The notes beneath the pieces were generated by a model. It ran no database searches and was not told the DNA's origin. It saw only the letters and a program-made list of their open reading frames with translations. From the NCBI GenBank assembly GCA_016932475.1, contig JAFGCU010000001.1, forward strand, positions 1 to 43,276: 43,276 bases of DNA. Direction: 5' to 3'. Shown here piece by piece: positions 5,923-41,655 of the stretch. The stretch is from Anaerolineales bacterium (lineage in GTDB: Bacteria > Chloroflexota > Anaerolineae > Anaerolineales > RBG-16-64-43). The position numbers and the translations under genes were made by a program. The first letter of the stretch is position 1; the number at the start of each line of letters is the position of its first letter.

Positions 5923-5923
5923 A

Positions 5924-8900: not shown

Positions 8901-11900
8901 ATGAAGCCGGGCGTCGGGTCTTCGGGCGCGTGGATCGCGATGCCGTCGACGAGCGGCGCAAGCCCGGAGGGTCCGTCGGCCACGGGCGCGCCGTTGAGAG
9001 TCGTGCTGCCTGCGACGTAGGTCGTGTTGGCCGGAATCGCGTCCCGCAGCCGCGCGCCGGTCGCGTGGTCCGTGCCGGTGTTGCGCACCGTGATCGTATA
9101 TCGCAGCCTCTCGCCCGCGAGCAGCACGTTCGGGTCCCCTTCCAGGTAGGCCGGGATCTTTTCCACCTGGAATTGCGGCGCCGACTCTATCCGGATCTGC
9201 GTCGCGTCCTCGTCGCCGAAGATTCTCGGATCATCGGGACCGTTTACGTTGGGATCGTCGCTCAGGGCGATCGGGAAGCCTCCGGTCAAAAGCTGCGCCT
9301 GGTTGTAGACGAAGCTGCCGTCGGCCAAAACCGGCGCAAGCGTCGCTTCGTACTCGACGAGCACGCTGTCGCCCGAGCCTCCGAGGCTCAGGCCGCGGAT
9401 GTCGAGCAGACCGGTGCCGTGAGCGCCCCCGGTGGCGCTCGTGTTCGAAGTGTCCGCGCCTTCAGGGGCCGCGATCACGGTAAGGGTGCCGGGTTCGAAG
9501 GCCGGCTGTCCGGGGCCGTTGCGCGCATCGAGCTCGTCGTGGAGGCTGAACTCCTCGACCGGCACGTCGCGCAGGTTCTCGATGGTGAGGCTGTAGCGAA
9601 GCCGCTCCCCGGGCGTCGCGAGCTCGGCCGGACTCACGTTGCGGCTCACGTTCGCGACCGTCTTCTCGAAGCGCAGCATCGGCAGGTTCACGAGCAGGGT
9701 ATGGGCGTCCTCCTGGTCGAGGGTGCCGACGGTGCCGTCGGTCAGATCACCGTCGTAGCTGCGCGGATCCGTGTCCGCGGCAAGCGGATCGGCGCTGTGC
9801 CAGAGCGTCGCGCCGGCCACGTTGGTGAGCCGGGCGTCCTGTTCGCTGTCGGTATCGAGCCGGGCCTGATAGGCGACGACAAGATGCTGGTCCGGACCGA
9901 TCGCGGCGGCGGGCGTCCGCATCGTAAACGTAAGCGTGCAGTGCGGATCGTTGCCTGCGGCCGGGGTGAATGCGGCGGCGAAATCCGTACCTTCGACGAG
10001 CGCGCCGCCTGCGGCCGTGGTGCCGTCCGCCTCGTACATCTGCGCCGTAAAACCGTCCGGGGCCGCGGCGCACATTCCTCCCGCGGCCGCGCCGTCGGCC
10101 GTGTTGGGCAGCCGGTCGGTGATCGTCACTGCGTAGGCCCGGGCCTGTGTCGTGTTGTGAACGTCCAGGGTAAAGGTTGCGGGAAGGCCGATGCGCATCT
10201 CGGAAGGGCCGCTCTTCAAGAGCGTAAGTTGGGGTTCGTCGATCTGCATCGGGCCGGTCGTGCCGGGCTCGCCCGTGCTGGCGCTCGCGTCATTGCCCTT
10301 GAGGCGGTTGTACGTGTATGCGGCCGTGTTGGTGAATGTGACGCCGGCGGCGTTGGCCGGGACGTTGGTTGCCAGCACCGTGATTTCGATGACCGCGAGC
10401 TGTCCGGCCGGGACGTCGATGCCGTTGACCGGGTCCTCGATTACGAGGTTCGTGTCGGTACCGGTGTTGACCGGCGCCCACGATCCGGGTCCCGAAACCT
10501 TCCTGGCGCCGAGGAAGCGCAGGTCGGCGGTCGCGTCCGCGAGATTGTCCGTGATCGCCACGTCGTAGAGCGGAGCCGGGTGGGGCGCGGCGGGAATGGT
10601 GATCCGGTAGGTGAACGGTTCGCCGATCCCTGCGACCGCCTGTGTGTTTTCCTTCAATGTCGCCGGCGGGGCGGAGGGCGAGGGGACGGCTTCGGCGACA
10701 ACCGGGCCGTAGCAGTAGTCGTCCGGCTGGTGGAAGTTCGGGCAGCCCGCGCCGGTGCGTTCGTAGGCGCTTTCTCCGTCAAGCGAAGTCCAGTCGATCC
10801 AGACGCTGTTGTCGATCGTGGGCCCGGCGACCGGCGCCGCGACAACGTCCATACGGTAGGTCAGCTCGAGGAAGCTGTTCGGCGGCAGATCCAGGCTTTC
10901 GTCTCCGTTGCCGCGGCCCCAGACCAGCGGGCCGGCGGGGGCGCCGTCCGGTTCGCCGGCGAAGCCGGGCACGGGTACGGCGTCGATCGCGGCCGCAGGC
11001 ACGAAGGCGTCCGATAGTTCGAGTTCGATGGGCGGCGTATCGACGATGTTGATGTCGTGAGCGACCGCATCGCCGGTGTTGACGACCGTCAGGAGATACT
11101 CGGCGATGTCGCCGAACTCCAGCGGATCGTCGGGGTTCTTTCCGGGCGTTGCGTTGGTCAGCGTCTTGGTGGCCGTGATGCCGGGTTCGGTGACCGTGAT
11201 CGCGTCCGTGGAGTCGTTCAGGATCTCGGGCATGCCGGTCATGACGTTGAAATACGAGGCATCGACCGCGTTTTGCAGCGTGTCGCCCGCGTCGGTGGCG
11301 AGGTCGTTGTTGATGCGCGCGTTGTAGCGGATTCGGATCGACGGCGTGACCGCCTGCGTCGCGGTGTCGTCCTCGCTGGCGGTGACGATGGTGCCGATAT
11401 CCCAGGTCGCGGCGCCGCTGGCGCCGTCGGCGGGCGAGGCGTTGAACGCGCTTTCGCCCGGGGCCAGGCCGTTGATGCCGGCAATGCCTGTAAACTCGTA
11501 GGTGACGTCGAAAGCGCCGTCGCGCGCGAGGCGGTAGCTTTCGCTTCCCGCCGCCAGGTTGTCGGTGACCACGAGCCCGTTTGTCGTTCCTTCGGGAAGG
11601 GAAATCTCGAGAAGGAAGGGCTTGTGGGCGCCGATGGCGGACGGGAGTGCGGGATCCATGTCCTGCTTCGCGACCGCAACCGTGCCTGTCGCGATTTCGT
11701 CGCTTGCCTCGGCCTCGTAGTCGTTGAGCGTGTCTCCAGTATTCGGCAGAGCGCCGTTGCGCATGCCGCCGGAGCTGCCGTCGGCGCCGATCTCGCCTGC
11801 CGGGTTCAATGCCGTGCTCCGGCCCGGCAGCGACGTCCAGTCCGCCTGAATCGTATTGGCCAGGAGTTCGTCCGGTTCCACCGTACCGTCCACGGTGACG

Positions 11901-14900
11901 GCGAATGAAAACTCGATGGTTTCGTTCGGGGCGACGGTGATGCCGGCGGGCCATGTAAACAGCGGCCGCTCCGGGCCGAAGGTGGTCAGGTCTTCGTCGG
12001 GCGGGTCGGCGCCCGCTACCCGGCCGGCTGCATAGCTCAACTTGATCCCCGAGAGATCGTCGAGCACCCGCAGGTTATAGGCCGTTGCGGTGCCTGTGTT
12101 GGTCGCGGCGACCGTGACGGTCAGCACGTCGCCCGCGTCCGCTTCGCCGGGAGTTATGGTCTTGGAAAGCTCGATGGCGGGCTCGCGGACCAGGACATCC
12201 ACCTGTCCGAAAACGACCTCGACGGGATTTCCCGCCTCGTCGATGTAGCGAACCGTCGCGCTGGTGGCCGGATCGCCGTTCGCCAGGATATCGCCGTCGT
12301 TGGTCAGCGTACTGTTCTCGACGCGCGCGATGAAGCCGATGCTGAAGGAATAGCGGTTGTCCGGCGTCGTCCCCCGGTTGATGCGCCGGTTGCCGAAATC
12401 CCATTCCACCACGCCGCCGCCGCAGGACGGCGTGACGGGCGTCGCCGGCTCGAAGTCCGCGTCCGCGTAGGGGCCGCCCGGACCGAGGTCCAATACCGGC
12501 GCGTCCACGCACGTCAAGCCCGGTGGTAGTTCGTCCCGGATCACGAAGTCGCGCAGCAGCGCGACGGGCAGCAGGGTCGTCAGACGGTACTCGATCTCCT
12601 CGCCGACAACCACTTCCTGCGGCCCGGGGGCGGGCGTTTCGGGCGTGTTCGAGGTGCGCACGATGTGCTTCGGCACCGTGTCCACCGGAAGGATCTCGAG
12701 TGTCGCCACCGCCGGGACGCTTTCGTAGACGCGCGCGCCGCCGATGTCGCCGCCGGGGCGCGGGTCGACGGTCTGATTTCCGGATTCGTTGGCGCCGCCG
12801 GCCAGCGAGTCGTATGCGGCGGCGACGCTGTTGGTGAATGTCTGCATGGGCGCGGCGTCGTTGTCGACGTCCACCCGGTAGTAGAGCCGCACGCTTTCGC
12901 CCGGATCGATGCGCCGGAGGCCGGTGCTGTGCTCATGCCGGAACGTAACCACGCCGTTTCGCCCGGAGGAGCAGTCGCCGCCCGGAGTTCCGGTCACGGT
13001 GCCCTCGGGGGCGGTGTCCGTGCCGCCGTCGGCGTCGTTGTCGAGGCCGTCGCTTTCAAACGGCAGGACGCAGACGAAGCCCGAGGGGTCCAGTGTATCC
13101 GTGACGGCCAGGTCGTACGCGGGCGAACGCGCGATGCCGTCGTCGTCGGCGCGATTGGTTACGGTGATGCGGTAGATGTAGCTGTGATAGGCGTCGCCGC
13201 CGCCGCCCTCCGCGGTCCAGTTGCCGCACGCCGGCCCGGTGCCGAAGCGCGTTTCGTCGCAGACCTCCTTGACGAGCTCGAGAAGGGGCTCGGTAATCGT
13301 CACGTCCTCGCGCCGGATCGACTCGTGCGGGTAGCCGACGGCGTCGGGATCGAGTCGGAAGGGGTGCTCCACGCCGCTCTCGTCGGCGAAGATCGCCGTG
13401 AAGTCCGAGACCAGCACGTTGTTCCCGTTGGCCGCGTGCCGGTTGGGCAGCCCGACCGTGTTGATCGGGACGTTCAGCAGCCGTGTGGTGAAGTCGGCCT
13501 GGAACCACTCGTCGATGCGATCGATGCGCTGCGTCTCGTTGAAACGCCAGGGGATCCGGCCGCCGGGTGCGATCAGGCCGCCGGGGGTCGGCGGCACGGG
13601 GGCCCCGAACAGCGTGATGCCCTGAATCTGGGAAGAACTTGTCAGGTAGGGGTCGGTCGAGGAGAGATAGCCCTGGCCCCCGCTCGGGTCCGCGTCCGTC
13701 CGCGGAATGTCGTCGACGACGACGTCCTCGACGGCGATATAGAGGAAGCCCGGCGTCGCGAAGCCGAACCAGCCCCCGCTGCGCGCCCGGTAGCTGCACT
13801 CTTCGCCGATTTCGACGCGCTCGGCCTGCTTGATAAACGGTCCGGGCTCATAGGCCGGAGGGTCGTTTTCCCGGCACCCGAGGCTTGACTTGATCAGGTT
13901 GAAGCCGATCACTTTCTGGCGCACGCCGTCGAGGCTGTAGTTGTTGGTGCGGTCGAGCTGGCCGTCGGCGCGCGCGATGGGCGCCGGGAACCACAGCGGC
14001 GTGCCGTCGTGAAGGAGAATTTCCCCCACCACGTCGGCGCGCAGCATGAGATCGTCGAGCAGCACGCGCGCGGGGTCGCTGCTTTTGATCACCCCGAAAT
14101 CGAGGTTCAAGGTCTGGCCGGGCCCGATTCCCTGCGGCGCCGGGCAATGATAGACCGTCTGCGTGTCCAGTATGGGCACCGGCTCCACCCACACTTTCCA
14201 GGGGTCGGGCTGAAGCGGCGTGCCGCCCGGCGTCACGGCGCTGCAGCCGGCGGGCGCGCCGGCCACCTCCATGGTCGCGCCGAAGGTGACGAACGCGTGG
14301 TAGCCCGTTGCGGTGTGGCCGCCGTTGTTCGTCAGCCGGACGCGCAGGAGAAGCTGCTGGGTCGGATCGTTGGTAAGAATGAACACATCTCCGGGGTTGT
14401 TGTCGGTGTCCGTGATCGCAACGTCCAGGTCCTCGGGAAACGCTTCAATAGTATTGATGTCGTCGTGGCTCCAGGTGAAATGTCCGGCCCCGTTGTTGCC
14501 CTGCGTCGCGCAGAACGTGTTGTAGTCCACGGTAAGCCGGTTGGAAAGCGGCGTAGCATACGCCGGGTCCATGCCGGCGCCCGTTTCCTCCGGCGTCTCA
14601 TCGAGGTCCGCCGCGAGGTCGTACGGCTCGACCAGATCGCGGTCCTGGCTGATCAGTACGACCGGGAAGGTCAGGGTCACCACGTCGCCGTGGCGCAGCA
14701 TGTTCTCCTGTTCGGGATAGACCGGGTGCGCCGTGCTGCTCCACAGCCGGAAGCGGGGCGCCGTGTTCCGCAACGGATCCAGCGAGGGCGCCGTCAGCAG
14801 GCCCTGCGGATTCTCCCAGGTCAGCCGGTCCACCATTCCGGGATAGACGTTGGTGCCGTAAGCCGGATTGATCGAGCTCTCCCCCGCGACCGGCGTGGAT

Positions 14901-16372
14901 CTCGCGGGCAGGTCCCTGGTCGTGCCGCCCGTCCAGTATGTCGGATCAATGACGTATTGCGGCGGCAGCACATCGTCGAGCTCGATGTCTTTGACCGTGC
15001 CGCCGGTATTGTTCCTGATCGTGAGAACCACCAGGCCGCGAGCCCCGAGCGGCTGGTTCGACACGGTTGCCGTGCCGACGGTGTCGACACCGGTGAATGC
15101 GCGCCGGATATCGAGCTGCGCGTCCTGATCGCCGTGGTGCGTGACCAGCACCCTGGTTTGGGCGGTCGCGGCCGGGATGCCCCCCGCGGCGGGACCGTCC
15201 GCCTCGCAGCCGTACTGGACGTCGTCGACCGTGTTGGTGGTTCCGCCGGCGATGCAGGAGGCGTTGGACGTGATCTTGCCGACCAGATAGACGACGGCGC
15301 TCGTGGATCCCGGCGGGACGTCGATGTCCCGGCTGTTCAGATCGCGCGTGAAGCCGCCGGTCGCGCCGCCGTTGGGAAAGTTCGTGGCGCCCCCCGAACC
15401 GAAGGGGTCGACGACGACCCGGTTGTCGATATGGTTGCCGGCCGCAGTGCAGATATCTCCCGGCGGCACCGCGGCGCCTGCCAGCTCCCCGTTGTTGTCC
15501 GCGATGGCGGAGGCCGCGGCTTCGGAGGAGCATGCGTAGCGGATCTCGAGGTTGCCCGCCTGCATCAAATCGTCGAAGCGCAGGTCCTGCAGCGCCGCAA
15601 GCCCGGTGTTCTGGATCTGGATGCGCCAGATGACGTCGTCGTTGTTGTGGCCGTAGACGTTGTTGGCGTACTGCCCGGACGACTGTCCGGCGTCGGCATT
15701 GCGGCCCTGTTTGATAACGCTGGCTACGGGCTGGCGCAACGGGAGAATTTCGGCGATGGTATCCGTCTCGCATAAGGGTCCGCCGACGCTGTACGAAACA
15801 CTGGCGGTGACGCCCCTGGGCGCGCCGGCCAGGCCTTCTTCGGTGGCGCCGTTCGCCCGGCGCACCTGGTACCGGATTTCCAGGTATCGGGCGGTCCCCT
15901 GGTTCGTACCTGACGGCTCCAGCTCATAACTGCCGAAATCCCAGGTCCACCAGTCTCCGGCGAGCACGGGCGCAGGCGCGGGTGGAGCAGGGGGCAACGG
16001 GCTCAATCCTCCCCCGATTGTGACGGTCGTCGTGCCCGGTATCGGAACCAGGCTTGGGCTGTCAAGGTTATGCCGGATAACGATGTCCGTGATCGGTGGG
16101 CCGACGTTTCCTATGCCGTTATTGTCGTCAAAGTAGTAGACGCGCGCCGTCATCCGGCTCGTGGCGCAGAGCTCGCAGTAGTTGTCGCTGTTGGCCTGGC
16201 TGCCGATATTGGGCAGAACGATTCCGACGTTGGCTAGAGCGGGGCATGTCTCCTGCGCCCGGGCGAGCGCCGGCAGAACGAGAAGGGCCGCCAGCAGCAG
16301 GAGCCCGGCCCTGAGAGCGCACGGGTTCCAGCGACGATCTGTTTTTACAAGGATGAAATTGCCGGGATTCAT
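5924..16372 (-). CDS. Giant DUF11-repeat surface protein with SdrD-like and OmpA-like C-terminal domains
   Basis: At 3482 residues this is the largest gene in the window. A hydrophobic signal segment ends near residue 40 (ALARAQE), preceded by an unusually long basic n-region. Most of the length is a chain of roughly 100-150 residue DUF11-type Ig-like repeats, each with the pattern GDxLxYxIxVxNxGxxxAxxVxxxDxLP and later FxNTA or LxNxA. Near residues 2858-2935 there is an SdrD B-like domain (GRAWHDADFDGLQGAGE), another carboxypeptidase-like fold follows, and a second SdrD-like segment reads GKVFNDANRNRVQDAGEDG. The end (about 3379-3460) looks like a degenerate OmpA-like domain (FEPGETEIR, then SYIADIETAALVEERVKAVR). 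Such repeats build long surface stalks or adhesins in known proteins. Here the OmpA-like end suggests anchoring to peptidoglycan on the periplasmic side. Expression is probably controlled by the c-di-GMP riboswitch immediately upstream. The ribosome-binding site (GAGG) is weak. Confidence 0.85.
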   Translation of the reverse strand: MNPGNFILVKTDRRWNPCALRAGLLLLAALLVLPALARAQETCPALANVGIVLPNIGSQANSDNYCELCATSRMTARVYYFDDNNGIGNVGPPITDIVIRHNLDSPSLVPIPGTTTVTIGGGLSPLPPAPPAPAPVLAGDWWTWDFGSYELEPSGTNQGTARYLEIRYQVRRANGATEEGLAGAPRGVTASVSYSVGGPLCETDTIAEILPLRQPVASVIKQGRNADAGQSSGQYANNVYGHNNDDVIWRIQIQNTGLAALQDLRFDDLMQAGNLEIRYACSSEAAASAIADNNGELAGAAVPPGDICTAAGNHIDNRVVVDPFGSGGATNFPNGGATGGFTRDLNSRDIDVPPGSTSAVVYLVGKITSNASCIAGGTTNTVDDVQYGCEADGPAAGGIPAATAQTRVLVTHHGDQDAQLDIRRAFTGVDTVGTATVSNQPLGARGLVVLTIRNNTGGTVKDIELDDVLPPQYVIDPTYWTGGTTRDLPARSTPVAGESSINPAYGTNVYPGMVDRLTWENPQGLLTAPSLDPLRNTAPRFRLWSSTAHPVYPEQENMLRHGDVVTLTFPVVLISQDRDLVEPYDLAADLDETPEETGAGMDPAYATPLSNRLTVDYNTFCATQGNNGAGHFTWSHDDINTIEAFPEDLDVAITDTDNNPGDVFILTNDPTQQLLLRVRLTNNGGHTATGYHAFVTFGATMEVAGAPAGCSAVTPGGTPLQPDPWKVWVEPVPILDTQTVYHCPAPQGIGPGQTLNLDFGVIKSSDPARVLLDDLMLRADVVGEILLHDGTPLWFPAPIARADGQLDRTNNYSLDGVRQKVIGFNLIKSSLGCRENDPPAYEPGPFIKQAERVEIGEECSYRARSGGWFGFATPGFLYIAVEDVVVDDIPRTDADPSGGQGYLSSTDPYLTSSSQIQGITLFGAPVPPTPGGLIAPGGRIPWRFNETQRIDRIDEWFQADFTTRLLNVPINTVGLPNRHAANGNNVLVSDFTAIFADESGVEHPFRLDPDAVGYPHESIRREDVTITEPLLELVKEVCDETRFGTGPACGNWTAEGGGGDAYHSYIYRITVTNRADDDGIARSPAYDLAVTDTLDPSGFVCVLPFESDGLDNDADGGTDTAPEGTVTGTPGGDCSSGRNGVVTFRHEHSTGLRRIDPGESVRLYYRVDVDNDAAPMQTFTNSVAAAYDSLAGGANESGNQTVDPRPGGDIGGARVYESVPAVATLEILPVDTVPKHIVRTSNTPETPAPGPQEVVVGEEIEYRLTTLLPVALLRDFVIRDELPPGLTCVDAPVLDLGPGGPYADADFEPATPVTPSCGGGVVEWDFGNRRINRGTTPDNRYSFSIGFIARVENSTLTNDGDILANGDPATSATVRYIDEAGNPVEVVFGQVDVLVREPAIELSKTITPGEADAGDVLTVTVAATNTGTATAYNLRVLDDLSGIKLSYAAGRVAGADPPDEDLTTFGPERPLFTWPAGITVAPNETIEFSFAVTVDGTVEPDELLANTIQADWTSLPGRSTALNPAGEIGADGSSGGMRNGALPNTGDTLNDYEAEASDEIATGTVAVAKQDMDPALPSAIGAHKPFLLEISLPEGTTNGLVVTDNLAAGSESYRLARDGAFDVTYEFTGIAGINGLAPGESAFNASPADGASGAATWDIGTIVTASEDDTATQAVTPSIRIRYNARINNDLATDAGDTLQNAVDASYFNVMTGMPEILNDSTDAITVTEPGITATKTLTNATPGKNPDDPLEFGDIAEYLLTVVNTGDAVAHDINIVDTPPIELELSDAFVPAAAIDAVPVPGFAGEPDGAPAGPLVWGRGNGDESLDLPPNSFLELTYRMDVVAAPVAGPTIDNSVWIDWTSLDGESAYERTGAGCPNFHQPDDYCYGPVVAEAVPSPSAPPATLKENTQAVAGIGEPFTYRITIPAAPHPAPLYDVAITDNLADATADLRFLGARKVSGPGSWAPVNTGTDTNLVIEDPVNGIDVPAGQLAVIEITVLATNVPANAAGVTFTNTAAYTYNRLKGNDASASTGEPGTTGPMQIDEPQLTLLKSGPSEMRIGLPATFTLDVHNTTQARAYAVTITDRLPNTADGAAAGGMCAAAPDGFTAQMYEADGTTAAGGALVEGTDFAAAFTPAAGNDPHCTLTFTMRTPAAAIGPDQHLVVAYQARLDTDSEQDARLTNVAGATLWHSADPLAADTDPRSYDGDLTDGTVGTLDQEDAHTLLVNLPMLRFEKTVANVSRNVSPAELATPGERLRYSLTIENLRDVPVEEFSLHDELDARNGPGQPAFEPGTLTVIAAPEGADTSNTSATGGAHGTGLLDIRGLSLGGSGDSVLVEYEATLAPVLADGSFVYNQAQLLTGGFPIALSDDPNVNGPDDPRIFGDEDATQIRIESAPQFQVEKIPAYLEGDPNVLLAGERLRYTITVRNTGTDHATGARLRDAIPANTTYVAGSTTLNGAPVADGPSGLAPLVDGIAIHAPEDPTPGFMPADATAEASNVATITFDVAVYPDALDGTVISNQAFVSAPDGGIIDHPSDDPRTPVADDPTRDAVGNAPLLYAEKSAALDYDAGTAGIVDPGDVLRYTIRIYNNSAIAATGAALRDDVPQHATYVADSLTLNGEPVGRPDGGISALVGGLNVSSPDRTPPLPGPGEGVLSPGEFAVVQFDLRVDDDATPGTLILNQAVVVTAELPDLRTDGDGNPATGPEPTVVVVGDAQVLSITKQVSVVGGGAALAGSTIEYLVTVSNLAAVPAHGVAIMDDLDTPVAGQLTFVGGSWTMNGLPDGIDVAGSLLTARYSDAYGPLEPGRSVTLRFRAVIDPGLQIGTRVTNTAIVHWNDPEQTASASVSIDVGGTPGIGILNGRAWHDADFDGLQGAGERALEGWQVGLYRDDRLLLETQTDAGGAYRLAGLEPNDLTGSPYELRFGAPGAGANSAMLGRAASPFTNGLQRISDIVLPSGANLQGLNLPIQPNGVVYNSVARIPVAGATLTLLDADVASPLPAGCFDDAAQQGQVTLADGYYKFDLNFSDPACPSGGNYIIDVEAPPGTAYLSGTSQIIPPVPAGPAEAFSVPACPGSPADAVPATALFCEIQPSELAPAPAVPARSAGTNHHIRLMLDGSRPPGSSQIFNNHIPIDPELDGAVAISKTTPLVNVTRGQLVPYVITVNNISGLLLTEASVVDRFPAGFSYVEGSARMDGVPAEPSIAGRELRWSGLVIAGTEVRTLRLLLAVGAGVAEGEYVNRARVANGVTGGAMSGEANATVRVVPDPLFDCTDVTGKVFNDANRNRVQDAGEDGLPGVRLVTPRGLQATTDPYGRYHITCAITPHEGRGSNFVLKLDDRTLPSGFRLSTDPVEIRRATRGKALTINFGASIDRVVGIDLSDAAFEPGETEIRAQWLPRLDLLIRELHKAPAVLRLSYIADIETAALVEERVKAVRRRLTEAWNEAEESYGLAIEHEVFWRRGGPPEHSGLMNRSGGE

Positions 16373-16424
16373 TGCCGCCTCGTTCCACTCAAACCGGTAG
16401 GAGTGCCGGCTCGAGCGGACCGGG

Positions 16425-16446
16425 CGGGCCGAGGACGATCGGCCCG
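16425..16446 (-). promoter_or_regulatory. Candidate riboswitch expression-platform hairpin
   Basis: CGGGCCGA and TCGGCCCG form a perfect 8-bp stem with a 6-base loop directly abutting the 3' strand of the riboswitch P1 helix. No U-tract follows, so it is not an ordinary intrinsic terminator. The start codon is 53 bases further on. Control of translation or of Rho access is possible but not shown. Confidence 0.45.
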
Positions 16447-16538
16447 GATTCCGGCGGTCCCGCTGTCGTGGAGCCCTCGCTCTTTAGACCGGTGACTTTG
16501 CGTCGCCGTCTTTCGACGGCTTTGCCTTTGTCGAAATC
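16447..16538 (-). promoter_or_regulatory. Cyclic-di-GMP-I (GEMM-I) riboswitch aptamer
   Basis: The minus-strand RNA contains the hallmark GEMM-I core: a GGCAAAG segment, a perfect 6-bp stem GCCGTC/GACGGC capped by a GAAA tetraloop (16505-16520), then CGACGCAAAGTCACCGGTCTAAAG. The second half carries CGACAGCGGGACCGCCGG, matching the conserved GxxAGCGGGGUUxCCG part of the Vibrio Vc2 aptamer. P1 closes with GATTTC (16538-16533) and GGAATC (16452-16447). It lies 74 bases before the start codon of the giant DUF11 gene and 76 bases after the stop of the TonB-like gene, so it can regulate the surface-protein and barrel genes separately from the motor genes. Whether c-di-GMP turns expression on or off cannot be read from the sequence. 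Confidence 0.92.
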
Positions 16539-16545
16539 GCGTCGA

Positions 16546-16575
16546 AATAAACTTCAGATCTGCTCCTTTTTCCAA
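16546..16575 (-). promoter_or_regulatory. Possible promoter internal to the operon, ahead of the riboswitch
   Basis: TTGGAA (16575-16570) and TTTATT (16551-16546) are 18 bases apart, each matching the sigma70 consensus at four of six positions. The expected start near 16539 coincides with the 5' edge of the riboswitch P1 helix, which raises the plausibility of this otherwise weak match. Confidence 0.4.
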
Positions 16576-16614
16576 ATCCCCTGCCGGCCTGGTTCGCAGC
16601 GCATCCGGCGGGTT

Positions 16615-18132
16615 TTACCCGTCCGACGCCGGCAGGAAGTCGATCGGGTACACGATCGTCAGAGCCTCCACGCCTTCCTTGGCGCCGAAATCGATGGTCC
16701 GGATGCGGCTCACCACCTGGTCGGCCAGGTTCGGGGCATCCATGTCGGTCGACTGCAGCACGCACATGGAAACGCTTCCGTCCGGTTCGATCGTCAGGCG
16801 CAGCACCATCTGACCCTGCAATGTGGGATCGATGCGCAGTTCCCGGTTGTAGAGCCGGTAGAACGCCGATTTGTAGCGGTCGAACACGATCTGTATTTCC
16901 TCGTCGGTGCGGGAAGCCCCCGGCCCGCCGCTTGCCTTCGGGCGTGCTTCGCCGCCGATGGACGCGATCGAGCTGGTCGCGCGGCCTACCTCGACGCCCG
17001 GGATCCCGCCGCCGCCTCCCCCGCCGCTGCCGCCGCCTCCTCCGCCGCGCACGTTGCGGCTCAGCGAGGCGATATTGATGCCGCCGCTTGAACCCGGCGC
17101 GCTGGTCGTCAGCATGGAGCGTGTCGGCATGGATCCCAGGCTGGCCTCATCGGCATCGCCGAAACGCGCATCCGCTCCGAGGCGCGGCGCGACAGCGTCC
17201 ATCGCCAGGCTTGCGATCTGGTTCTTGAATGCCAGGATGCCGGCGTTTGCGGCTTTCCGGGGCAGCGGGCCCGGCGGGGAATCGGCCGAGGTCCCCGGTC
17301 CGACCGGGCCCGGCGGCAGCCCGGGCTGTCCGGGGGGCGGTTCCGGCGCGGCGGCAGACCGTGTCTCCTCCGGGAGCGGTTGCCGGGACGCTTCCTGCGC
17401 TTCGGCGGATTCCGGTTTTTTCCGCTCCGCTGGTTCCCTCTCCGGCGGCTTCGCTTCAGCGGCCGGCGGCGGCGGGACCGGTTTCGACATCTCCTGCCGG
17501 ATAAACTGCGCCAGACGCCGGGGCACGGCATCTTCCTTTTCGAAGCGGCCGGTCAAGGGCAGCCGGATCATCGGGAACAGCAGGCCGAGGATCAGACTGG
17601 CCAGCAGCGACAGTGCCAGGGACTTGCGGAAAAGCCTGTCGTCCTCGCCTCCGCGCGCCCATGCCATCAACTGCAGGCGGGGCGGCAGCGGACTGATATC
17701 CCGTTCGACCACCCATTCGAGCTTGCGGCGCTCCTCCGCTTCCCGGACCTGATACAGGTCCTCGGAAAGGACCTCGAGACCTTCCTCTTCGCGGCCCATC
17801 TCGGCCAGGATTGTCCGGCGCCGCGCGTCGAGCTCGCCGAGCTGCGCCTGGAATGCGCGGATGCGGCTTCGCACCGCCTCGAGCTGCCGCGCGGCTCGTG
17901 CCGGTTCGATCTTCTCCTCATAAAAAAGCGAGGCGGCGCCGAGTTCAGTGAGCTTTTCAAGGGCGCCGCAGGCCTGATCCAGCAGCTCATGGTGCACGCG
18001 CTCCGCGGCAAGGCTCCCGATTTCATCCTCGACGGCGCGCAGATCGGATGCCAGACTCTCCAGTTTTTCGCGAACCTGCCCCACCTGAGAAAGCAGTTCC
18101 TGTTCTTGCAGAGATTTCAAGTCGTCGCTCAT
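16615..18132 (-). CDS. TonB-like energy transducer with AgmX/PglI-type C-terminal domain
   Basis: The 505-residue protein starts with a cytoplasmic, heptad-rich coiled coil (about residues 1-145) and has one membrane segment (about 170-188, SLALSLLASLILGLLFPMI). A Pro/Glu/Lys-rich spacer follows, then a Gly-rich stretch (about 355-375) and a C-terminal domain (about 400-505). That domain contains FDRYKSAFYRLYNRELRIDPTLQG, broken here as FDRYKSAFYRLYNREL then RIDPTLQG, followed by GxMVLRLTIEPDGSV, the pattern of the AgmX/PglI C-terminal (TonB-related) domain. In Myxococcus, proteins with this domain (GltI/GltJ) couple the Agl motor to the periplasm. The gene begins 7 bases after the second ExbD gene, so the four motor genes form one block. 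The long cytoplasmic coiled coil is not found in ordinary TonB. Confidence 0.82.
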   Translation of the reverse strand: MSDDLKSLQEQELLSQVGQVREKLESLASDLRAVEDEIGSLAAERVHHELLDQACGALEKLTELGAASLFYEEKIEPARAARQLEAVRSRIRAFQAQLGELDARRRTILAEMGREEEGLEVLSEDLYQVREAEERRKLEWVVERDISPLPPRLQLMAWARGGEDDRLFRKSLALSLLASLILGLLFPMIRLPLTGRFEKEDAVPRRLAQFIRQEMSKPVPPPPAAEAKPPEREPAERKKPESAEAQEASRQPLPEETRSAAAPEPPPGQPGLPPGPVGPGTSADSPPGPLPRKAANAGILAFKNQIASLAMDAVAPRLGADARFGDADEASLGSMPTRSMLTTSAPGSSGGINIASLSRNVRGGGGGGSGGGGGGGIPGVEVGRATSSIASIGGEARPKASGGPGASRTDEEIQIVFDRYKSAFYRLYNRELRIDPTLQGQMVLRLTIEPDGSVSMCVLQSTDMDAPNLADQVVSRIRTIDFGAKEGVEALTIVYPIDFLPASDG

Positions 18133-18139
18133 ACCTACC

Positions 18140-18637
18140 CTATGTCGATTGCCCGGATTTCTGGACTACGGCCAGCGACACCCGCGTATAGCCGCGCGCC
18201 GTGCAGGTGGAAAGGATCTTTTTCAGAACGCTGAAGGGGATCGACCTGTCGGCGAGAACGGTCACCTCCCGGCTCTCCGCGACCGCCTGGGTGCTCAGGC
18301 CGATGACCCTGTAGCTCAGTTCCTCGAGCCGTAAGCCGATGGGTTCGATTTCGGCGCTTTCATCTGCCCGGATGTCCGCGATGCGCGCGACGGGCACCCC
18401 CTGCACCAGCACCTCGTCTTTTCCGACCAGAATCACGACCGTCTCGCGCGGCTTCTCTTCAACCGCGGATTCCGGAAGCTCGATCTGCTTGGGCTGCTGC
18501 AGCGTCTCCACCGAGCTCTGGTTGACCATCAGGAAAAAAACCAGGATCGTGAACACGTCCATGAGCGAGGTCAAGGGCAGCTTCGGCAGGATTCCTTTGT
18601 GGCGCGTCATGCGCCCGATCCGGCGCGATACTTTCAT
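18140..18637 (-). CDS. ExbD/TolR-family motor protein (second copy, Asp intact)
   Basis: This 165-residue protein has a basic cytoplasmic N-terminus, one membrane segment (LPLTSLMDVFTILVFFLMVN) and a periplasmic ExbD/TolR domain ending in a typical VSLAVV strand. D27 sits in the membrane segment where ExbD D25 and TolR D23 carry protons. Its start overlaps the stop of the preceding ExbD gene (ATGA). It would work with the ExbB-type protein encoded at 19122-19772 to convert proton-motive force into movement of the TonB-like transducer. Confidence 0.88.
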   Translation of the reverse strand: MKVSRRIGRMTRHKGILPKLPLTSLMDVFTILVFFLMVNQSSVETLQQPKQIELPESAVEEKPRETVVILVGKDEVLVQGVPVARIADIRADESAEIEPIGLRLEELSYRVIGLSTQAVAESREVTVLADRSIPFSVLKKILSTCTARGYTRVSLAVVQKSGQST

Positions 18638-19116
18638 GGGGCATCTCCTATCGATATCGCCGGGAACAGGGACGTAAGTATTTTTTCCCCGGCATCATGC
18701 GTTTCGAAGCTCCGGACGGCATCCATGACCTGAATGAGGTGGTCGTAGGGAATATCGGGTTCGAGCAGCACGGAGGCGTCCTCTTTATCCGGGTACCGGC
18801 CCTTGACCGCGACGAGGTAATCCGAGAGTTTCTCCAGATCATAGGCGCCCCCCGTTTTGGGAATCTCCAGGACGACCCGGGAGCCGTCCATGATTTCGAG
18901 CCCCGCGCCGCGCAGGACCACCTCAACACGGAAGGTCGGGGCGGACGGCTCCTCGCTTATGGCGCTAGGCAGGTCGAGCTCCGCGATCGTGATCCGCGAA
19001 AAAACCGCCGTGATGAGCAGAAACGGCACGAGCACGACCATCAGGTTCAGGAAGGTCGTCATCTCGAGCTCGGGCGCTTCCTTGCGGCGCCGCCGGTAGT
19101 GGTGGACTCTTGCCAT
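18634..19116 (-). CDS. ExbD/TolR-family motor protein (first copy, Asp replaced by Asn)
   Basis: The 160-residue protein has the same layout as its neighbour: a basic N-terminus (VHHYRRRRKEAPELE), a membrane segment (MTTFLNLMVVLVPFLLITAV) and a periplasmic domain. The membrane-embedded Asp expected after the MTP-like motif is N24, codon AAC at 19047-19045, so this subunit should not be able to carry protons as known ExbD proteins do. The ATG at 19116 is chosen because the protein begins there in family-like fashion and AGGGAA precedes it. The open frame extends further upstream only as read-through inside the exbB-like gene. The start lies 5 bases after that gene's stop. Confidence 0.88.
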   Translation of the reverse strand: MARVHHYRRRRKEAPELEMTTFLNLMVVLVPFLLITAVFSRITIAELDLPSAISEEPSAPTFRVEVVLRGAGLEIMDGSRVVLEIPKTGGAYDLEKLSDYLVAVKGRYPDKEDASVLLEPDIPYDHLIQVMDAVRSFETHDAGEKILTSLFPAISIGDAP

Positions 19117-19121
19117 GTTCC

Positions 19122-19772
19122 CTACGCCTCCGCTTTGCGTTTCGCGAGCGCCGTGATGACGTTCAGGGCCTTGACGGACGCCATTTCGAGACTGTCCACG
19201 ATCTCGCTTGTCTTGGCGGCGAGCACGGAGTGCGTCACCAGCAACGGGATTGCGGCAATCAGCCCGAACGCGGTCGTGTTCATCGCGACGGAGATGCTCG
19301 CGGAGAGCAGGTCGGCCTTCTCCGCCGGGTTGGCGTTCGCCACCGCGGTGAACGCTTCGATCAGTCCCATGATCGTGCCCAGCAGCCCGAGCAGCGTGGC
19401 GATGCTGGCGCCGAGCGCGACATAAGCCGTGCGCTTCTCCAGCTTCGGTATGATCTCCATCATGCTCTCTTCCATCGCGATCTCGATGTCCTCCCTGCGG
19501 CGCACGGCTCCCTGGCGCGCCAGGCCCATGCCCAGAAGCTGCGACACCGTGGAGTCGTCCTCGCTGGTCATTTTGCGCGCCTTCTCGAAATCCCCGTTTG
19601 AGAGCGCGGGCTGGAGCCTGCTCCACATGCCTTCGTTTTTGCGCCGGACCTGCGCGAGCGTCCAATAGCGCTCGATCGCGATCGCGATACCGACGGCGAA
19701 AACGATCAGAATGGGGTACATGAACGGCCCCCCCGCCACGAAGAATCTCACTATTGCGTACATAGCATCCAT
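19122..19772 (-). CDS. ExbB/TolQ/MotA-family proton channel protein
   Basis: The 216-residue inner-membrane protein has three hydrophobic segments (about 10-33, 116-140, 163-187), as in ExbB, TolQ and AglR. The family core is clear: GLLGTIMGLIEAF with T133 and SVAMNTTAFGLIAAIPLL with T166/T167, the polar residues lining the proton path. The cytoplasmic loop between the first two segments is of normal length. GGAGG lies 8 bases before the ATG at 19772. It forms the stator with the two ExbD proteins. Association with AgmX/PglI-type and TPR genes, rather than with a siderophore receptor, places it nearer the Agl motors than ordinary TonB systems. Confidence 0.92.
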   Translation of the reverse strand: MDAMYAIVRFFVAGGPFMYPILIVFAVGIAIAIERYWTLAQVRRKNEGMWSRLQPALSNGDFEKARKMTSEDDSTVSQLLGMGLARQGAVRRREDIEIAMEESMMEIIPKLEKRTAYVALGASIATLLGLLGTIMGLIEAFTAVANANPAEKADLLSASISVAMNTTAFGLIAAIPLLVTHSVLAAKTSEIVDSLEMASVKALNVITALAKRKAEA

Positions 19773-20001: not shown

Positions 20002-20379
20002 TCACGGCTTCCTTCCCGACCGGATCTCGTAGTAACGCAGCTCCCGCAGGAACACCTCCTTGTCCACGGGCTGCCGGGAGTCGTCCAGGACGGTTGAAAT
20101 ATCCAGCGAGTCGCCGATCTCCGAGCTCTTCCAGGGAACGATGACAAGCGATTTGGGGGCCTCCTGGTTGCCGAGGATGGACATGCCCGAAATCACCTTC
20201 GCGTCCTGCCGATCCGGGGATTGCGCCCCGCCGGCCTGTTCCGGCCGCGACTCCCTCTGTTCGTTTCTTTCGTTCGCTTGTTCCTGCGGGGCTTCCTTTT
20301 CCGCCTGCGCCGCGGCTGCCGCCGACGTCAGTACGACGCAGGCGGCCAGCAGCAGCGCGCGCGGTACGTTTTTTTTCAT
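20002..20379 (-). CDS. Small secreted protein of the motor operon, function unknown
   Basis: The 125-residue product has a signal peptide ([20 protein letters not shown], cleavage near AAAQA) and a Glu/Gln/Arg-rich linker. A compact C-terminal part follows, with [20 protein letters not shown], then [16 protein letters not shown] and a YYEIRSG end. I recognise no named domain, but the [15 protein letters not shown] segment looks strongly conserved in style and may bind a partner. The ATG at 20379 follows GGAGG and overlaps the stop of the TPR gene (ATGA). Another in-frame start 135 bases upstream is inside that gene and adds no signal peptide. It is likely a periplasmic component of the same envelope complex. 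Confidence 0.72.
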
Positions 20380-21089
20380 TGTGCCTCCTCCGCTGCTGCG
20401 CGCATGCGAATGTCCGCGATCCATTTGGCGGTCTCGACATCGTTCGGAGCGAGCCGGTGGTACGCCTCGTAATGCTCCAGCGCGCACGGGTAATCGCCGA
20501 GATACAGGTCGCAAAGAATGGCCAGGTTCCTGTGCGCGTAGTGAAAGTCGGGAAACTGCGCCAGGGAGGCTTCATAACTCGATCGCGCTTTCCCGAACTC
20601 TCCCTTGCGCCTCTCGACCAGGCCGAGCTCGTTGAGGGCTGCGGGGTGGTGCGGGTTCAGCGTGAGCGCCCGGTTCAGGCTGTCCCGGGCGCGCTCGAGG
20701 TCGCCCGTGCGCGCGTACGCAATGCCGAGATCGATATGCGCGGCCGTTAATTCCGGCGCCTGTTCGGTCACCTCGAGCAGCAAGGCGATGCCCTTCTCGT
20801 ACCGCGCCTCCTCCAGCATACGCACTGCGGCTTCGTAACCGGCGCGAACCGCCTCGGCAACGAGCACCCTCTGCGTTACCGTGAAACCGCCCGGATCCTG
20901 CCGGACGCTCACGACCCCGGGCGGAGGCTCGGCCTGCCCGTCCGGATTCCATGCCTCCCCCGCCTCCGGCGGCACCGCGTCCACGGCGACGGGAACCTTA
21001 TGCGCGCAGCTCACGGTGAGGCTCAGGGCCAGCCAAGGCAGGCTGAGACCGAGCAGTTTCACGGAGAAGGCCGTCTTACCTGTGCGCAT
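20376..21089 (-). CDS. TPR lipoprotein of the motor operon
   Basis: The 237-residue protein has a lipoprotein signal (LSLTVSC, cysteine near residue 28). After a Pro-rich segment it carries at least three tetratricopeptide repeats ([21 protein letters not shown], split as [13 protein letters not shown] and [60 protein letters not shown]). TPR lipoproteins of this size occur in the Glt complex and in Pil systems as assembly scaffolds. The ATG at 21089 overlaps the end of the upstream TPR gene by 14 bases. That start gives a proper signal sequence; the longer open frame upstream does not. Confidence 0.8.
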
Positions 21090-24000
21090 GTTTTTCTCCC
21101 CCCTTGTTTGCGGCCATGGGTTCCGGGTCCGCCGCCCGCTCCGGCTCTTCGGGCAGCGCACCGGCCCGGCCCGGTTCCGGCATGGAATTCCGGGCCGCCG
21201 GCGACCGGTACACGTAACTGTCGATAGCCCCAAGAAAGCCGCCGCTCATTTCCTGCTTCGCGTAGCGGCCCGGCATCAGCTCGGTCAGCCTGCCGAGGCT
21301 CTTCTCGGTCCATTCGTTGAAGACGCCGGCGCGCAGCATTTCGATGTTCTTCTCATGAACGTTTATGGCTTTCTCCTCGAACGGGAACGCCGTCTCATCG
21401 AGGTTCATCTCGAACGCCTCCAGCTCTTCGGGCTCGAGCTCTTCGGGGCGTTCCGAGTCCATCAGGGAGCGGCTGAAATCGAAGTAGGTTTCCGCCATAT
21501 AGTACGTGGCCGCAGCGGTCACGTCGGCGATCTCGTAATCCACCAGAAGGCTCATGGCTTCGATTGTTTTATTCATGCCCTGCTGCTTCTCCTGCAGGCT
21601 GGCCTCGAAAGGTTGGCGCAGCTTCACGGCCGCGTAGTCCCGGTACAGGTGCTCAGCAAGGACCAGCGACGCACGGGCCGCGAGCGTCCGTGTCCGGCCG
21701 GTCCTTTCCGTCCCGGCATCCGCATCGATGCTCACGATTCGCTCCAGCTCCCGGAGATACAGCGATTCCTCGTTCGCAGCCCTGTACATGCCCGCGATCC
21801 TGTTGCGGGTCTCGAGCGCCGTCTCGATCGGCCCGGGGAATTCATGAACATAGAGGTTGTACGCGCGCAGCGCGCCGTCCCGTTCGCCGGATTCCTCGTA
21901 GAGGCCGCCGGCGGCAAGCAGCGCGTCGCCGCGCAGGGCCGGATCTTCGGACTCCGATGCCAGGCGTTCGTATTCCCCGGCCGACTGCGGCAATTGTCCG
22001 TCCTCCCGGTAGGCGAAAGCGATCTGTCGTGTGGCGTCGACGCGCAGTTCGTGCTCCGGATATTCGCGGCGGAATGTGTCGAACACGCTTACGGCTTCCT
22101 TCCAGTTCCGAAGCCGGATCAGCGCGGCTCCCGCGTCGTACTGGGAGGCGGCGCAGATGCCGGATTCAGGCGCCGACGAGCGCACCCGGAGGAAATGGTC
22201 GGCTGCCGCGCGGAAGTCCTGCGCTTCGTTTGCCAGCTCACCCTGCCTGTAGACGGAGGCGGCGAGGTTCTCTACGAGCGCGGAACGCGACTCGTCGCTT
22301 TCCGGGACGGCTGCCAGCACCCGGGCATAGGCCCGTTCGGCTTCGGCGTACTCGCCGAGCTCGAACGAGCCGTGCGCCGTGACGAGCCAGGCGGACTGTT
22401 GAAGCGCCGGCCCCGAGTCCGGGTAGGAAGCGATGACGCGCCGGGCGGAGTCGACGGCGGTGCGGTAATCCTTCATCCCGTACAGATCGTCCGCGGCCGC
22501 CCCAAGGACCGCGGCCGCCTGTTCGTGCTCCGGGAAGGCGTCTGCAAACCGGAGCGAACTTGCGACCGCATCGCGCCTGACGGCTTCCCGCTGCTGCTCG
22601 CTCGCGGCACTCAGCTGCCTGCGGTAGGCATAGACCGCGGCGTATCCCGCTTCCGCCGATTGGGAGTGAGGCGGGTATTCGTAGGCGGTGCGTTCGTACT
22701 GCCCGGCCGCATCCCCGAAATCCCCGTTCTCGAAGAGAAGGTCCGCGAGCTTGCAGTTGATTTCGGGCGAATCGCCGTCGGAAGGGAAGGACTCGAGATA
22801 GTCGCCGTACCACCGGATGGCCTCGCCGTAGCTTGCGAGCTTCTCGTCCTCTTTCCCGGCGCTTTGATATTCGGCGTGGTAATGCGTCGCGAGGTCTTTC
22901 AGGTTGGTTTTGAGGCAGAGGAGCGCTTCCGGAGAGTCTTCGGGGCTGACGTGCCGCCAGTATTCGGCCTGCAGCCCGTACCTGGACGCGAACTCCCGCT
23001 TGGACTCCAGCACGAGCATGGGAAACCCGCCCTTGGTGAAGGTTTCCACCACCTTCATGCTGAAATGCGGCGCGGCCCGGTGGAAAGGATAGAGCCGGAT
23101 GAAAGACCGGAACGTCTTCGCCGCGTCGTCGTAGCGCAGCTTCGCCAGGAAGTGCTCTCCAAGATTGCGGTAAATGCGGTCCTCGTAGGGACGGTTGCCG
23201 GAGGATGAAAAATATTCCGGGACGGCTTCCGGGCCGCCGAGATTGGTGAAGCTCAGGCTGATGACCCGGAAGGTGTCCTCGACGCGGCGCTCCTCCTCCA
23301 CCTCGTGCGTCTCGTCGAAGTCGTAGCCGGTCGAAAGCTTGTAGTCAAGCAGCGCCATGTACCTGTCGAGGGCTTCCTCGTAGAGTTCCTGTTTGTAGAA
23401 CGCCCAGCCGAGCTTGTAGAGGGCGAGCTCGTAGTAAGGGGATTCGTCGCCCAGTTCGATGATGGCGGAGTAGGCGCTCTCGGCGTCGAGGTATTTCCTG
23501 TGAGTGAAGAAAAATTCGCCCCGGCGGAACTGCACTTCGTCTAGGTGTTCGGAGTGCGGATTGGCGCGCACCAGGCGATCCATGGCTTCCATGGCCTCTT
23601 CGGTGCGGCCGATCTCGTCGTACGCCCGCGCCATCTGGTACAGGACCCGGTCGCTGTCTTCGTAACGCGGGTACTCGGTGAGCAGCCGGTTATAGAGGGC
23701 GATCGCCTCGAGGGGGCCCGCGGAAGCCGTTTCATTGCCCGGCGAAAAGGGCGGCGCAGCCGCGGCATCGCCGCCGTCTGCCGGAATGCGGCCCCCGGCG
23801 GTTGTGCGCCGCTCGAATTCCGGATCGGACTCCCGCGGTCCGGCGTTGTCCGTGTGGATCCCGAACTGCTTTTCAAGTTGCAGGTCGGCGAGACGGCGCA
23901 TCGCCTCGGGGGTCATGGTTGTTTCCGGCGTCTCCTCGAGAAAGCGCCGGTAGTGGCGCATCGCCTGATCGAGGCCCTGATCGACCTCGAGTTCCCCGAG

Positions 24001-24132
24001 CTCCCGAGCGCCCGGGCCCGCGTTGTGCAGTTGCGCCAGCGTTCCGGCCGTTGTGGCCGTCTTCACGCTTCGTGTGGCGCAGCCGGCCGTGAAAGCCGAC
24101 GCGAGCATGATGGAGACTATGAATGAACGCAT
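21076..24132 (-). CDS. Large TPR lipoprotein of the motor operon
   Basis: The 1018-residue product has a lipoprotein signal peptide (SAFTAGC, cysteine 18) and many tetratricopeptide-like helix pairs along nearly its whole length. Examples are [38 protein letters not shown] and [19 protein letters not shown]. Such solenoids are protein-binding scaffolds; anchored by lipid they would face the periplasm. Myxococcus Glt and Agl clusters carry similar very long TPR proteins. Its ATG overlaps the stop of the preceding gene (TGATG). No enzymatic domain is visible. Confidence 0.82.
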
Positions 24133-26015: not shown

Positions 26016-26777
26016 TTACCATTCCCCCAGGGTGATCGGAGCGCCGCCGGCGCCCGGTCCGGCCAGGGTCAGTTCCACCAGCTTCGGCTTCACTTCCTTG
26101 CGGAATGTAAAACGTTCCGCGGGACTGAAATCTTCGCCGCCTTCGAGCTGGCCTTCGACATGCACATCCAGCCGGTGCTCCCCGGTCGCCACGTTGCCGA
26201 CATAGATCCTCTGCACGCCCCCTTTGCGCAGCGCTTCGAGCTCTTTTGCGCTGTAGATGTAGTGCGCGACCGGCTGCCCGTCGATCTCGAGCCTCACGGC
26301 GTCGAGACGCATCCGTTCGCCCTCGGCCAGCGCGACGAAGATTGCAATCTGGGTGCCGGACGGATAGAGCAGCTTTTCCTCCAGTTGCGCGAGTTCCGCG
26401 GCAATTTCCAGAACCTCCGATTTGATTTCCTGCACCTGTTCGTCGAGCCCCCGCATCTCCTGCGGGCTGTTTTCCTGCGACCGGCCTTGGATGCCGCCGA
26501 GGCAAACGAGCAGCGCAAGGGCGACGGCAAGCCCTGCCGGAATCTGCTTGAAGCGCCGTGAGACCCGGCTTTCCTGTGTCGGGCGCCGCAGCTTCCCGCC
26601 GAATTCCGGGGTCTGCGGGCGCGCGCGGCGGTTCCTCCGGGCAGCGCCCATGCCTGTCCCGACGCCCGTGCCGCCGGAAGGGCGGAGCAGGCCGCGAAGG
26701 TGCGGTGCCGGGGCCGACGGCCTCCGAAGGCCGCGCTCGGGATGCTTGTGTGCAGTGATGTTTATACGATCTTTCAT
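26016..26777 (-). CDS. Single-pass membrane protein with basic cytoplasmic tail, first gene of the operon
   Basis: The 253-residue protein has about 78 disordered, Arg/Pro/Gly-rich residues and one membrane segment (about 80-96, AGLAVALALLVCLGG). A short coiled coil follows (about 108-137), then a beta-rich periplasmic domain with AIFVALAEGERMRLDAVRLE and HRLDVHVEGQLEGG. The fold may be Ig-like but I do not recognise a named family. ATG 26777 is preceded by AAGGAAA. A start inside, after the basic tail, would give a conventional signal peptide, so the true N-terminus is uncertain. It is the first gene of the minus-strand block. Confidence 0.68.
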   Translation of the reverse strand: MKDRINITAHKHPERGLRRPSAPAPHLRGLLRPSGGTGVGTGMGAARRNRRARPQTPEFGGKLRRPTQESRVSRRFKQIPAGLAVALALLVCLGGIQGRSQENSPQEMRGLDEQVQEIKSEVLEIAAELAQLEEKLLYPSGTQIAIFVALAEGERMRLDAVRLEIDGQPVAHYIYSAKELEALRKGGVQRIYVGNVATGEHRLDVHVEGQLEGGEDFSPAERFTFRKEVKPKLVELTLAGPGAGGAPITLGEW

Positions 26778-27091
26778 TTTCGTACGTTTCCTTGATGCGT
26801 TCAGGGGGATTTACGCTTGGAGAATTCATGGTTAGAGTCGGATATTACGGCGAAATTGGCTGTGATTGCCGTCACCGTTAAACGAATATTCTCTGAAGGC
26901 GCATTCGGGATGCGTGCGGGAGGGCTGTGGGTGCGTCAATGGATCCCTATGGATCTCAACAGCTTGGCGGATAGGGAATTTCCGGTTCGCCGAGGGGCGT
27001 TTTAAAAGCCCCGACCCGCGGAATATGCAGCCGGACATGCAGTGATAAGAATACGGATTCTCCAGCTGAAATTCACGGAAAAACAGGATAA
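26778..27091. other. Intergenic region upstream of the motor operon
   Basis: No gene is supported here. The operon promoter should lie here; a TAATAT sequence near 26840 on the minus strand is the best -10 candidate but lacks a good -35 box. A GGGGC/GCCCC hairpin with a TTTT/AAAA inner part lies at 26994-27012. I see no second c-di-GMP aptamer in this leader. Confidence 0.4.
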
Positions 27092-41508: not shown

Positions 41509-41655
41509 CGTCACCGCTCCCTGCAGCATCCATCCGCTGCCGGCAGATTATTTCTTACGATTTCCGGGATTCCTGGAGGAATCGTATCACAGGTTCCGGT
41601 AAGGAACTATGAACTCGAATTATGCATGGAACCGGGAATCATGGGAACGGAAACG

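Follow-up and report, generated by a model that had tools for sequence, protein, structure and literature searches.

Introduction

In Bacteroidetes the motor of type 9 secretion moves the gliding adhesins SprB and RemA, and we know of no c-di-GMP riboswitch in these systems. Myxococcus xanthus has an Agl/Glt gliding machine and an Nfs spore-coat machine; according to the available text of Luciano et al. (2011), a core complex of this type occurs in gammaproteobacteria, where its function is unknown and where it is unlikely to drive motility alone (PMC3169522).

Three members of the c-di-GMP-I (GEMM-I) riboswitch class serve here for comparison. As described in the available text of the papers cited, Vc2 of Vibrio cholerae and Cd1 of Clostridioides difficile are both OFF switches, Vc2 at the level of translation by masking the ribosome site and Cd1 at the level of transcription in flagellar genes (PMC9262584), and Vc1 of V. 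cholerae precedes an adhesin gene (PMC4744006). The position of G20 in Vc2 separates the c-di-GMP type from the cGAMP type, G20A being the change used for cGAMP binding (PMC6274999).

In this work we analysed a 43,276-nucleotide stretch of an Anaerolineales genome (hereafter the window), for which a sequence-only reading had proposed a c-di-GMP-I riboswitch in front of a giant surface protein gene. Judged from sequence comparisons, a working c-di-GMP-I riboswitch very probably leads the giant DUF11 gene in an envelope-motor operon that resembles Agl/Glt and moves horizontally. Like the SprB/RemA systems, this operon would couple a proton-driven inner-membrane motor to a giant surface protein, but its motor, transducer and barrel belong to different families. 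The window aptamer shares its family, the GAAA tetraloop, the contacting G and the core with Vc2, Vc1 and Cd1; unlike these three, it has the giant protein of an envelope-motor operon as its target, carries in P3 the signature GCGGGA[CT]CGC, which is lineage-specific among the parsed aptamers, and belongs to a group whose gammaproteobacterial branch stands under a CRP-type promoter. Measured against the open-licence literature, the aptamer class is known; what is new is its constant position, with an Agl/Glt-like machine on one side and a giant surface protein on the other. No on-topic title in that literature joined a c-di-GMP or GEMM riboswitch with DUF11, Acidobacteria, AglR or ExbD, and, the 2011 paper aside, the operon did not appear in the titles or abstract openings of papers on DUF11 with TonB, ExbD or OmpA, on gliding with DUF11, or on the core complex with c-di-GMP.

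Results

The operon lies on the minus strand and begins with a gene which has no match in NCBIfam but was found by tblastn in relatives (26016-26777). It is followed by genes for an exported TPR protein (24132-26012) and a large TPR lipoprotein-like protein (21076-24132), both recognized by Pfam TPR families, a GltE-like TPR lipoprotein (20376-21089; NF033758, 39 bits), a small exported protein conserved with the operon according to tblastn in relatives (20002-20382), a MotA/TolQ/ExbB-like protein (19122-19772; TolQ and ExbB models below cut-off, PDB matches to TolQ/ExbB), two ExbD/TolR-like proteins (18634-19116 and 18140-18637; PF02472) and a TonB/GltG-like transducer with an AgmX/PglI C-terminal domain (16615-18132; NF033768, 57.3 bits, cut-off 40). 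A PDB sequence search with the TonB-like protein returned low-complexity matches only. The last two recognizable genes, which overlap by 14 bases, encode the giant protein (5924-16372; 3482 aa), in which Pfam, the translation, a C-terminal alignment and a structural model show a signal-peptide-like N-terminus, DUF11 repeats, SdrD_B and a conserved C-terminal alpha/beta domain, and its partner (1330-5937; 1535 aa), which has an N-terminal OmpA domain and a large C-terminal beta-barrel (Pfam, translation, model of the last 975 residues).

The clustering of one MotA/TolQ-like protein, two ExbD/TolR-like proteins, a TonB-like transducer and three TPR proteins resembles the Agl/Glt core complex, of which the AgmX/PglI end domain of the transducer is a feature, and horizontal spread is common to the operon and the Agl/Glt/Nfs-type core complex as presented in the available text of PMC3169522. 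Unlike in Agl/Glt, no Glt equivalog cut-off was reached in the operon: on the TPR proteins the GltE model (NF033758) gave 39 bits (cut-off 225) and the GltC model 14.5 bits (cut-off 450). A further difference lies at the end of the operon, where a giant DUF11 protein is followed by an OmpA/barrel protein of 1,500 residues; the available text of PMC3169522 mentions neither for the core complex. From its gene content and model matches the operon looks as if it were built like the Agl/Glt core complex; we do not claim membership.

The stop codon of the TonB-like gene is followed by 79 nt, the aptamer and another 77 nt before the ATG of the giant gene. The only gathering-level Rfam match in the whole 43 kb window (cmscan) was RF01051 (c-di-GMP-I) at 16450-16536 of the minus strand, which comprises P2 and P3, covers model positions 1-87 completely and scores 84 bits (gathering cut-off 35, E 2.9e-15). 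With the closing stem P1, read from the sequence as GATTTCG (16538-16532) paired with CGGAATC (16453-16447), the aptamer extends over 16447-16538, which equals the interval proposed earlier. The features from which the sequence-only reading had recognized a GEMM-I aptamer, the GAAA-capped stem (P2, which has six pairs), GACGCAAAG and CTAAAG, are all there, all core and contact positions are intact, and the covariance-model search, which that reading had named as a check, bore the assignment out. The aptamer does lie inside the motor operon, with the TPR, MotA/ExbB-like, ExbD-like (two) and TonB-like genes upstream of it and on the same strand, which the sequence-only reading had left unstated. 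That it precedes only the last two genes held for the recognizable DUF11 and OmpA/barrel genes; one further ORF (594-1136, 180 residues), for which no Pfam or NCBIfam family was found, lies between the barrel gene and the contig end and could be a third leader-controlled gene.

In an alignment of 21 operon aptamers 97.8% of the cells were paired, and 14 of the 21 pairs showed changes on both sides; these counts lean towards the model, to which the alignment had been fitted. None of 500 shuffles reached either value, and slid structures paired to 23-45%. The E-value and the covariation exclude a chance match. A riboswitch of the upstream TonB-like gene can also be dismissed, because the aptamer lies beyond the stop codon of that gene and reads toward the giant gene. 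All 21 aptamers have a G at the ligand-contact position which we take to be the equivalent of Vc2 G20; the leader RNA would be expected to bind c-di-GMP. In the whole genome (3.65 Mb in 129 contigs, 97.8% complete) RF01051 matched once, at the window aptamer, and there were 17 GGDEF matches.

Relatives were searched with the barrel partner as probe. The GTDB collection contains 136 loci that encode a barrel relative, and we retained the 80 best; on these, tblastn showed that gene set and order are shared by Acidobacteriota and Gammaproteobacteria, and that the giant and barrel genes come first in the cluster in Desulfuromonadales. A covariance model built from 29 aptamers (the window's and its relatives) was run, together with Rfam, over the loci and their genomes. 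The junction between the TonB-like and the giant gene was readable in 35 genomes, including the window's, and contained the aptamer in 18 of them: in the window and in Acidobacteriota (L034, L035, L083), Myxococcota (L186, L188, L189) and Gammaproteobacteria or kin (L040, L043, L044, L048, L051, L052, L053, L057, L172, L173, L181; the records of L053 and L057 bear other names). The 17 aptamers outside the window also reached the Rfam cut-off in the whole-genome search. This recurrence in three phyla, to which a fourth adds tandem aptamers, is in agreement with the proposal that the giant gene is the target. One more junction (L175) gave a weak match of 33 bits, and at the thresholds used the aptamer was not found in the other 16, among them the acidobacterial L036 and L037, whose junctions are just 29-54 nt long. 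With 17 of 35 junctions lacking an intact aptamer, the switch must be dispensable.

In a Desulfuromonadales MAG (L054, 937-1243) two identical 79-nt tandem aptamers, each followed by a terminator-like hairpin and a T-run, stand ahead of the DUF11 giant gene; in L087, where giant and barrel genes also come first, the aptamer was not found. RF01051 matched somewhere in 38 of 50 genomes searched and in 5 of 28 further ones, mostly Microbulbifer and other gammaproteobacteria; in these five the loci surrounding the matches had no TonB-like, giant or barrel match and were not operon-linked. RF01051 did not match in four acidobacterial genomes with a barrel gene (G102, G107, G115, G137); as a TonB-like match was missing there too, these junctions were unreadable. 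The genome of the nearest barrel relative, L032, has no RF01051 match, though the L032 contig breaks off within the partner gene.

A tree of 78 barrel sequences (quick IQ-TREE search, SH-aLRT support only) placed 17 of the 18 aptamer-positive rows in one 37-row clade with support of 100. This clade unites the window and Acidobacteriota with Myxococcota and Woeseiaceae-like gammaproteobacteria, and has 9 negative and 11 unread rows as well. Of the rows outside it, 37 were negative, 3 were unread and only L054 was positive. The aptamer label required 9 state changes on this tree; in 300 shuffles the number averaged 15.9 and never fell below 12. The P3 signature GCGGGA[CT]CGC, located in the 3' strand, was present in 18 of the 21 aligned operon aptamers, the exceptions being L172 and both L054 copies. 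The genome-wide searches yielded 67 aptamer loci, 54 of which were parsed; the signature was seen in five of these, each a second copy of an operon locus that had been counted before, and was absent from the remaining 49. The single clade and the P3 signature suggest that the switch was most likely inherited along with the operon. L056 (4811-5000) and L061 (4561-4760), both scored negative, contain by eye P3-like remnants without the P2 core, as expected of aptamer decay, and in L050 (3055-3330) the aptamer is nearly gone; the clade appears to have seen several losses. The tandem arrangement of L054 looks like a separate gain.

The composition of the operon differs from that of its surroundings. 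GC content is 66.0% in the operon (1330-26777) vs 57.9% in the right flank of the window, and the tetranucleotide correlation with the genome is 0.65-0.78 for the operon and 0.86-0.90 for the flank; 8-kb pieces from ten other stretches of the genome gave 0.94 (sd 0.018, minimum 0.905). The barrel partner gene was found in one of 101 related genomes and in one of 400 genomes sampled from the phylum, that is, only in the window's own. c-di-GMP-I aptamers are present in 35 of the 101 related genomes, including the window's, and those of the relatives differ in P3 type from that of the operon. Most simply, the operon would have brought the switch with it by horizontal gain. A chimeric contig is less likely, because the composition of the flank is closer to that of the genome, but it is conceivable: in the flank, the gene at 30461-31942 had only 29-46% matches, in 12 relatives, and the gene at 37987-41529 (1,180 residues) had no match in the relatives. 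The gene adjoining the far end of the operon (28085-29197) encodes a regulator with a helix-turn-helix and a molybdate-binding-like PBP domain; 32261-33769 encodes a reductive-dehalogenase-like protein with a TAT-type signal and a 4Fe-4S domain (TIGR02486, 155.1 bits, just under the cut-off of 160.35).

In 9 of 11 gammaproteobacterial riboswitch loci the palindrome TGTGA-N6-TCAC was found directly upstream of the aptamer, together with a [GC]ATAGT box whose last base lies 35 nt after the centre of the CRP-type site (36 in L043), a spacing which fits a class II CRP promoter. The exact motif of site and box occurred 11 times in loci L040-L066 (492 kb), each time at the giant-gene leader, and the promoter was kept in L049, L050, L056, L061 and L178, although the aptamer was lost or not found there. 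Because this pattern sits directly upstream of the aptamer, the giant gene of the gammaproteobacterial branch is probably transcribed separately, from a start near the beginning of the aptamer. The CRP-type promoter is absent from the junctions of the window, Acidobacteriota and Myxococcota. No sigma-70-type site was found in the leader region of the window, so the leader there seems to be part of the operon transcript. The only exact CRP-type palindrome of the window, TGTGATTGCCGTCAC at 26861-26875, lies 84 nt upstream of the operon's first gene and has no clear -10 box at class II distance.

Downstream of the window aptamer, folding revealed a 7-bp GC hairpin just 3' of it (16426-16445), a 14-pair hairpin (16384-16419), whose outer extension covers the Shine-Dalgarno stretch and whose 5' side can compete with aptamer P3, and a Shine-Dalgarno-like AACGAGGC 4 nt before the ATG (16377-16384), all on the minus strand. 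In 19 single-aptamer cases the leader between aptamer and start codon was short (42-85 nt). Each leader was folded free and with the aptamer pairs forced, and the mean unpaired probability of the Shine-Dalgarno-like stretch served as readout. Forcing the aptamer lowered access by at least 0.05 in 10 of the 19 leaders listed, raised it in three (L044, L172, L054) and left it unchanged in six, including the window. The clearest falls were seen in Myxococcota (0.30 to 0.02, 0.11 to 0.03 and 0.13 to 0.00) and in L051 (0.88 to 0.38); in the window the value was 0.30 in both states, so that no switching is seen in the computed fold. Only 5 of 20 leaders (L034, L052, L053, L188, L054) competed with the aptamer more strongly than at least 55 of 60 shuffles, and in the window 53 of 60 shuffles were as high or higher; anti-aptamer competition as a general rule was therefore dropped. 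There was no intrinsic terminator on the sense strand at 16300-16700 of the window, and no U-tract terminator was seen in the leaders other than the Desulfuromonadales tandem. In view of these short leaders, and with the tandem as the only one having a U-tract terminator, we infer that control is exerted mostly through ribosome access.

The C-terminal region of the giant protein is conserved (66% mean column identity in 29 sequences), and the DUF11 part varies, the open frame being 2.9 kb long in L083 vs 10.4 kb in the window; the N-terminus was dropped as a search handle because the DUF11 part differs in length and sequence. In a model of the C-terminal 333 residues (pLDDT 86, pTM 0.45) the first two domains match Ig-like domains of Gram-positive adhesins and pilins. 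The last alpha/beta domain had no database match and is OmpA-like by the order of its elements only. The giant protein may thus consist of a variable outer part on a conserved anchor which would meet the barrel and the motor. The model of the last 975 residues of the partner (mean pLDDT 68) has about 34 strands from residue 342 on. Among the matches listed there were only general outer-membrane barrels (best Foldseek E 4e-7, TM at most 0.25 on the query), and the best VIA-align comparison gave Z 14.8 with an rmsd of 6.2 over 335 residues; we therefore claim no barrel family for the partner.

Discussion

According to the mechanism that we propose, the upstream genes would build an inner-membrane motor and a periplasmic TPR/TonB-type transducer, and c-di-GMP would change the yield of the giant protein and, through the gene overlap, that of its barrel partner. 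The yield of the motor would be unaffected, because the riboswitch is located after the motor genes. The same switch occupies the same site in bacteria that are only distantly related, which suggests that cells set the supply of the giant protein separately from the motor. This independence, which had been proposed from the window alone, agrees with the position of the aptamer and with the CRP-type promoter of the gammaproteobacterial branch, whose probable own transcript is the strongest support for control of the giant gene independent of the motor; it has to be narrowed for the window itself, where no separate promoter was found and control would therefore be differential expression within one transcript.

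It is conceivable, though improbable, that the window aptamer is an intact passenger which was brought along by horizontal transfer of the operon and has ceased to control expression. It is the sole c-di-GMP-I aptamer of the genome, the operon is of foreign composition (tetranucleotide correlation 0.65-0.78 vs 0.94, sd 0.018), the partner gene was seen in no other of the 101 related and 400 phylum genomes, no switch could be computed for the window leader, and relatives contain decayed copies. However, the core and all contact positions are intact in the window, its aptamer has the top score in the operon-linked set (with a covariance model that included it), and there are 17 GGDEF matches in this genome. 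We consider it very improbable that the leader senses 3',3'-cGAMP, as GEMM-Ib types do, instead of c-di-GMP: the G which we equate with Vc2 G20 is present in 21 of 21 operon aptamers, and G20A was the change used for cGAMP binding, even if the available text of two papers documents cGAMP-responding members of the class (PMC6274999, PMC9262584).

How the switch acts is a separate question. An attenuator of read-through from the motor genes, as opposed to a translational switch, would be compatible with the hairpin and U-run behind each of the L054 aptamers and with the GC hairpin behind the window aptamer, but such a mechanism is unlikely since the sense strand at 16300-16700 has no terminator-like site and the other leaders comprise only 42-85 nt. 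As for the direction, the folds lean towards OFF, though not in the window, and we slightly favour the reading that high c-di-GMP turns the giant gene off. This direction would suit a motility or surface-dynamics protein better than a biofilm adhesin. The opposite, that c-di-GMP raises the giant protein as it does in the case of Vc1 and the adhesin gene gbpA of V. cholerae, is quite possible: according to the available text of PMC4744006, lowered c-di-GMP reduces Vc1-dependent expression, and the DUF11 and SdrD_B domains of the giant protein are adhesin-like. Against it stand the ten leaders with reduced Shine-Dalgarno access on forcing the aptamer, compared with three in which access rose.

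In a wider perspective we propose, tentatively, that the Agl/Glt-like core complex is a machine for the giant DUF11 protein and the barrel, that the supply of the giant protein is the step under regulation, by c-di-GMP through an ancient riboswitch which moves between phyla with the operon and was acquired once more in Desulfuromonadales, and that the same leader is driven by a CRP-family regulator in Gammaproteobacteria. If this is true, one surface protein of Gammaproteobacteria is under the control of two nucleotide second messengers. The presence of the riboswitch at one junction across phyla, after the machine and before the giant protein, points to the giant protein as the adjustable output. 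In one genome (G135; L182, 1-2466, corresponding to G135:C175:26900-29365) a second DUF11-like gene with a c-di-GMP-I aptamer of its own follows directly after the barrel gene, thus this cluster contains two riboswitched giant genes.
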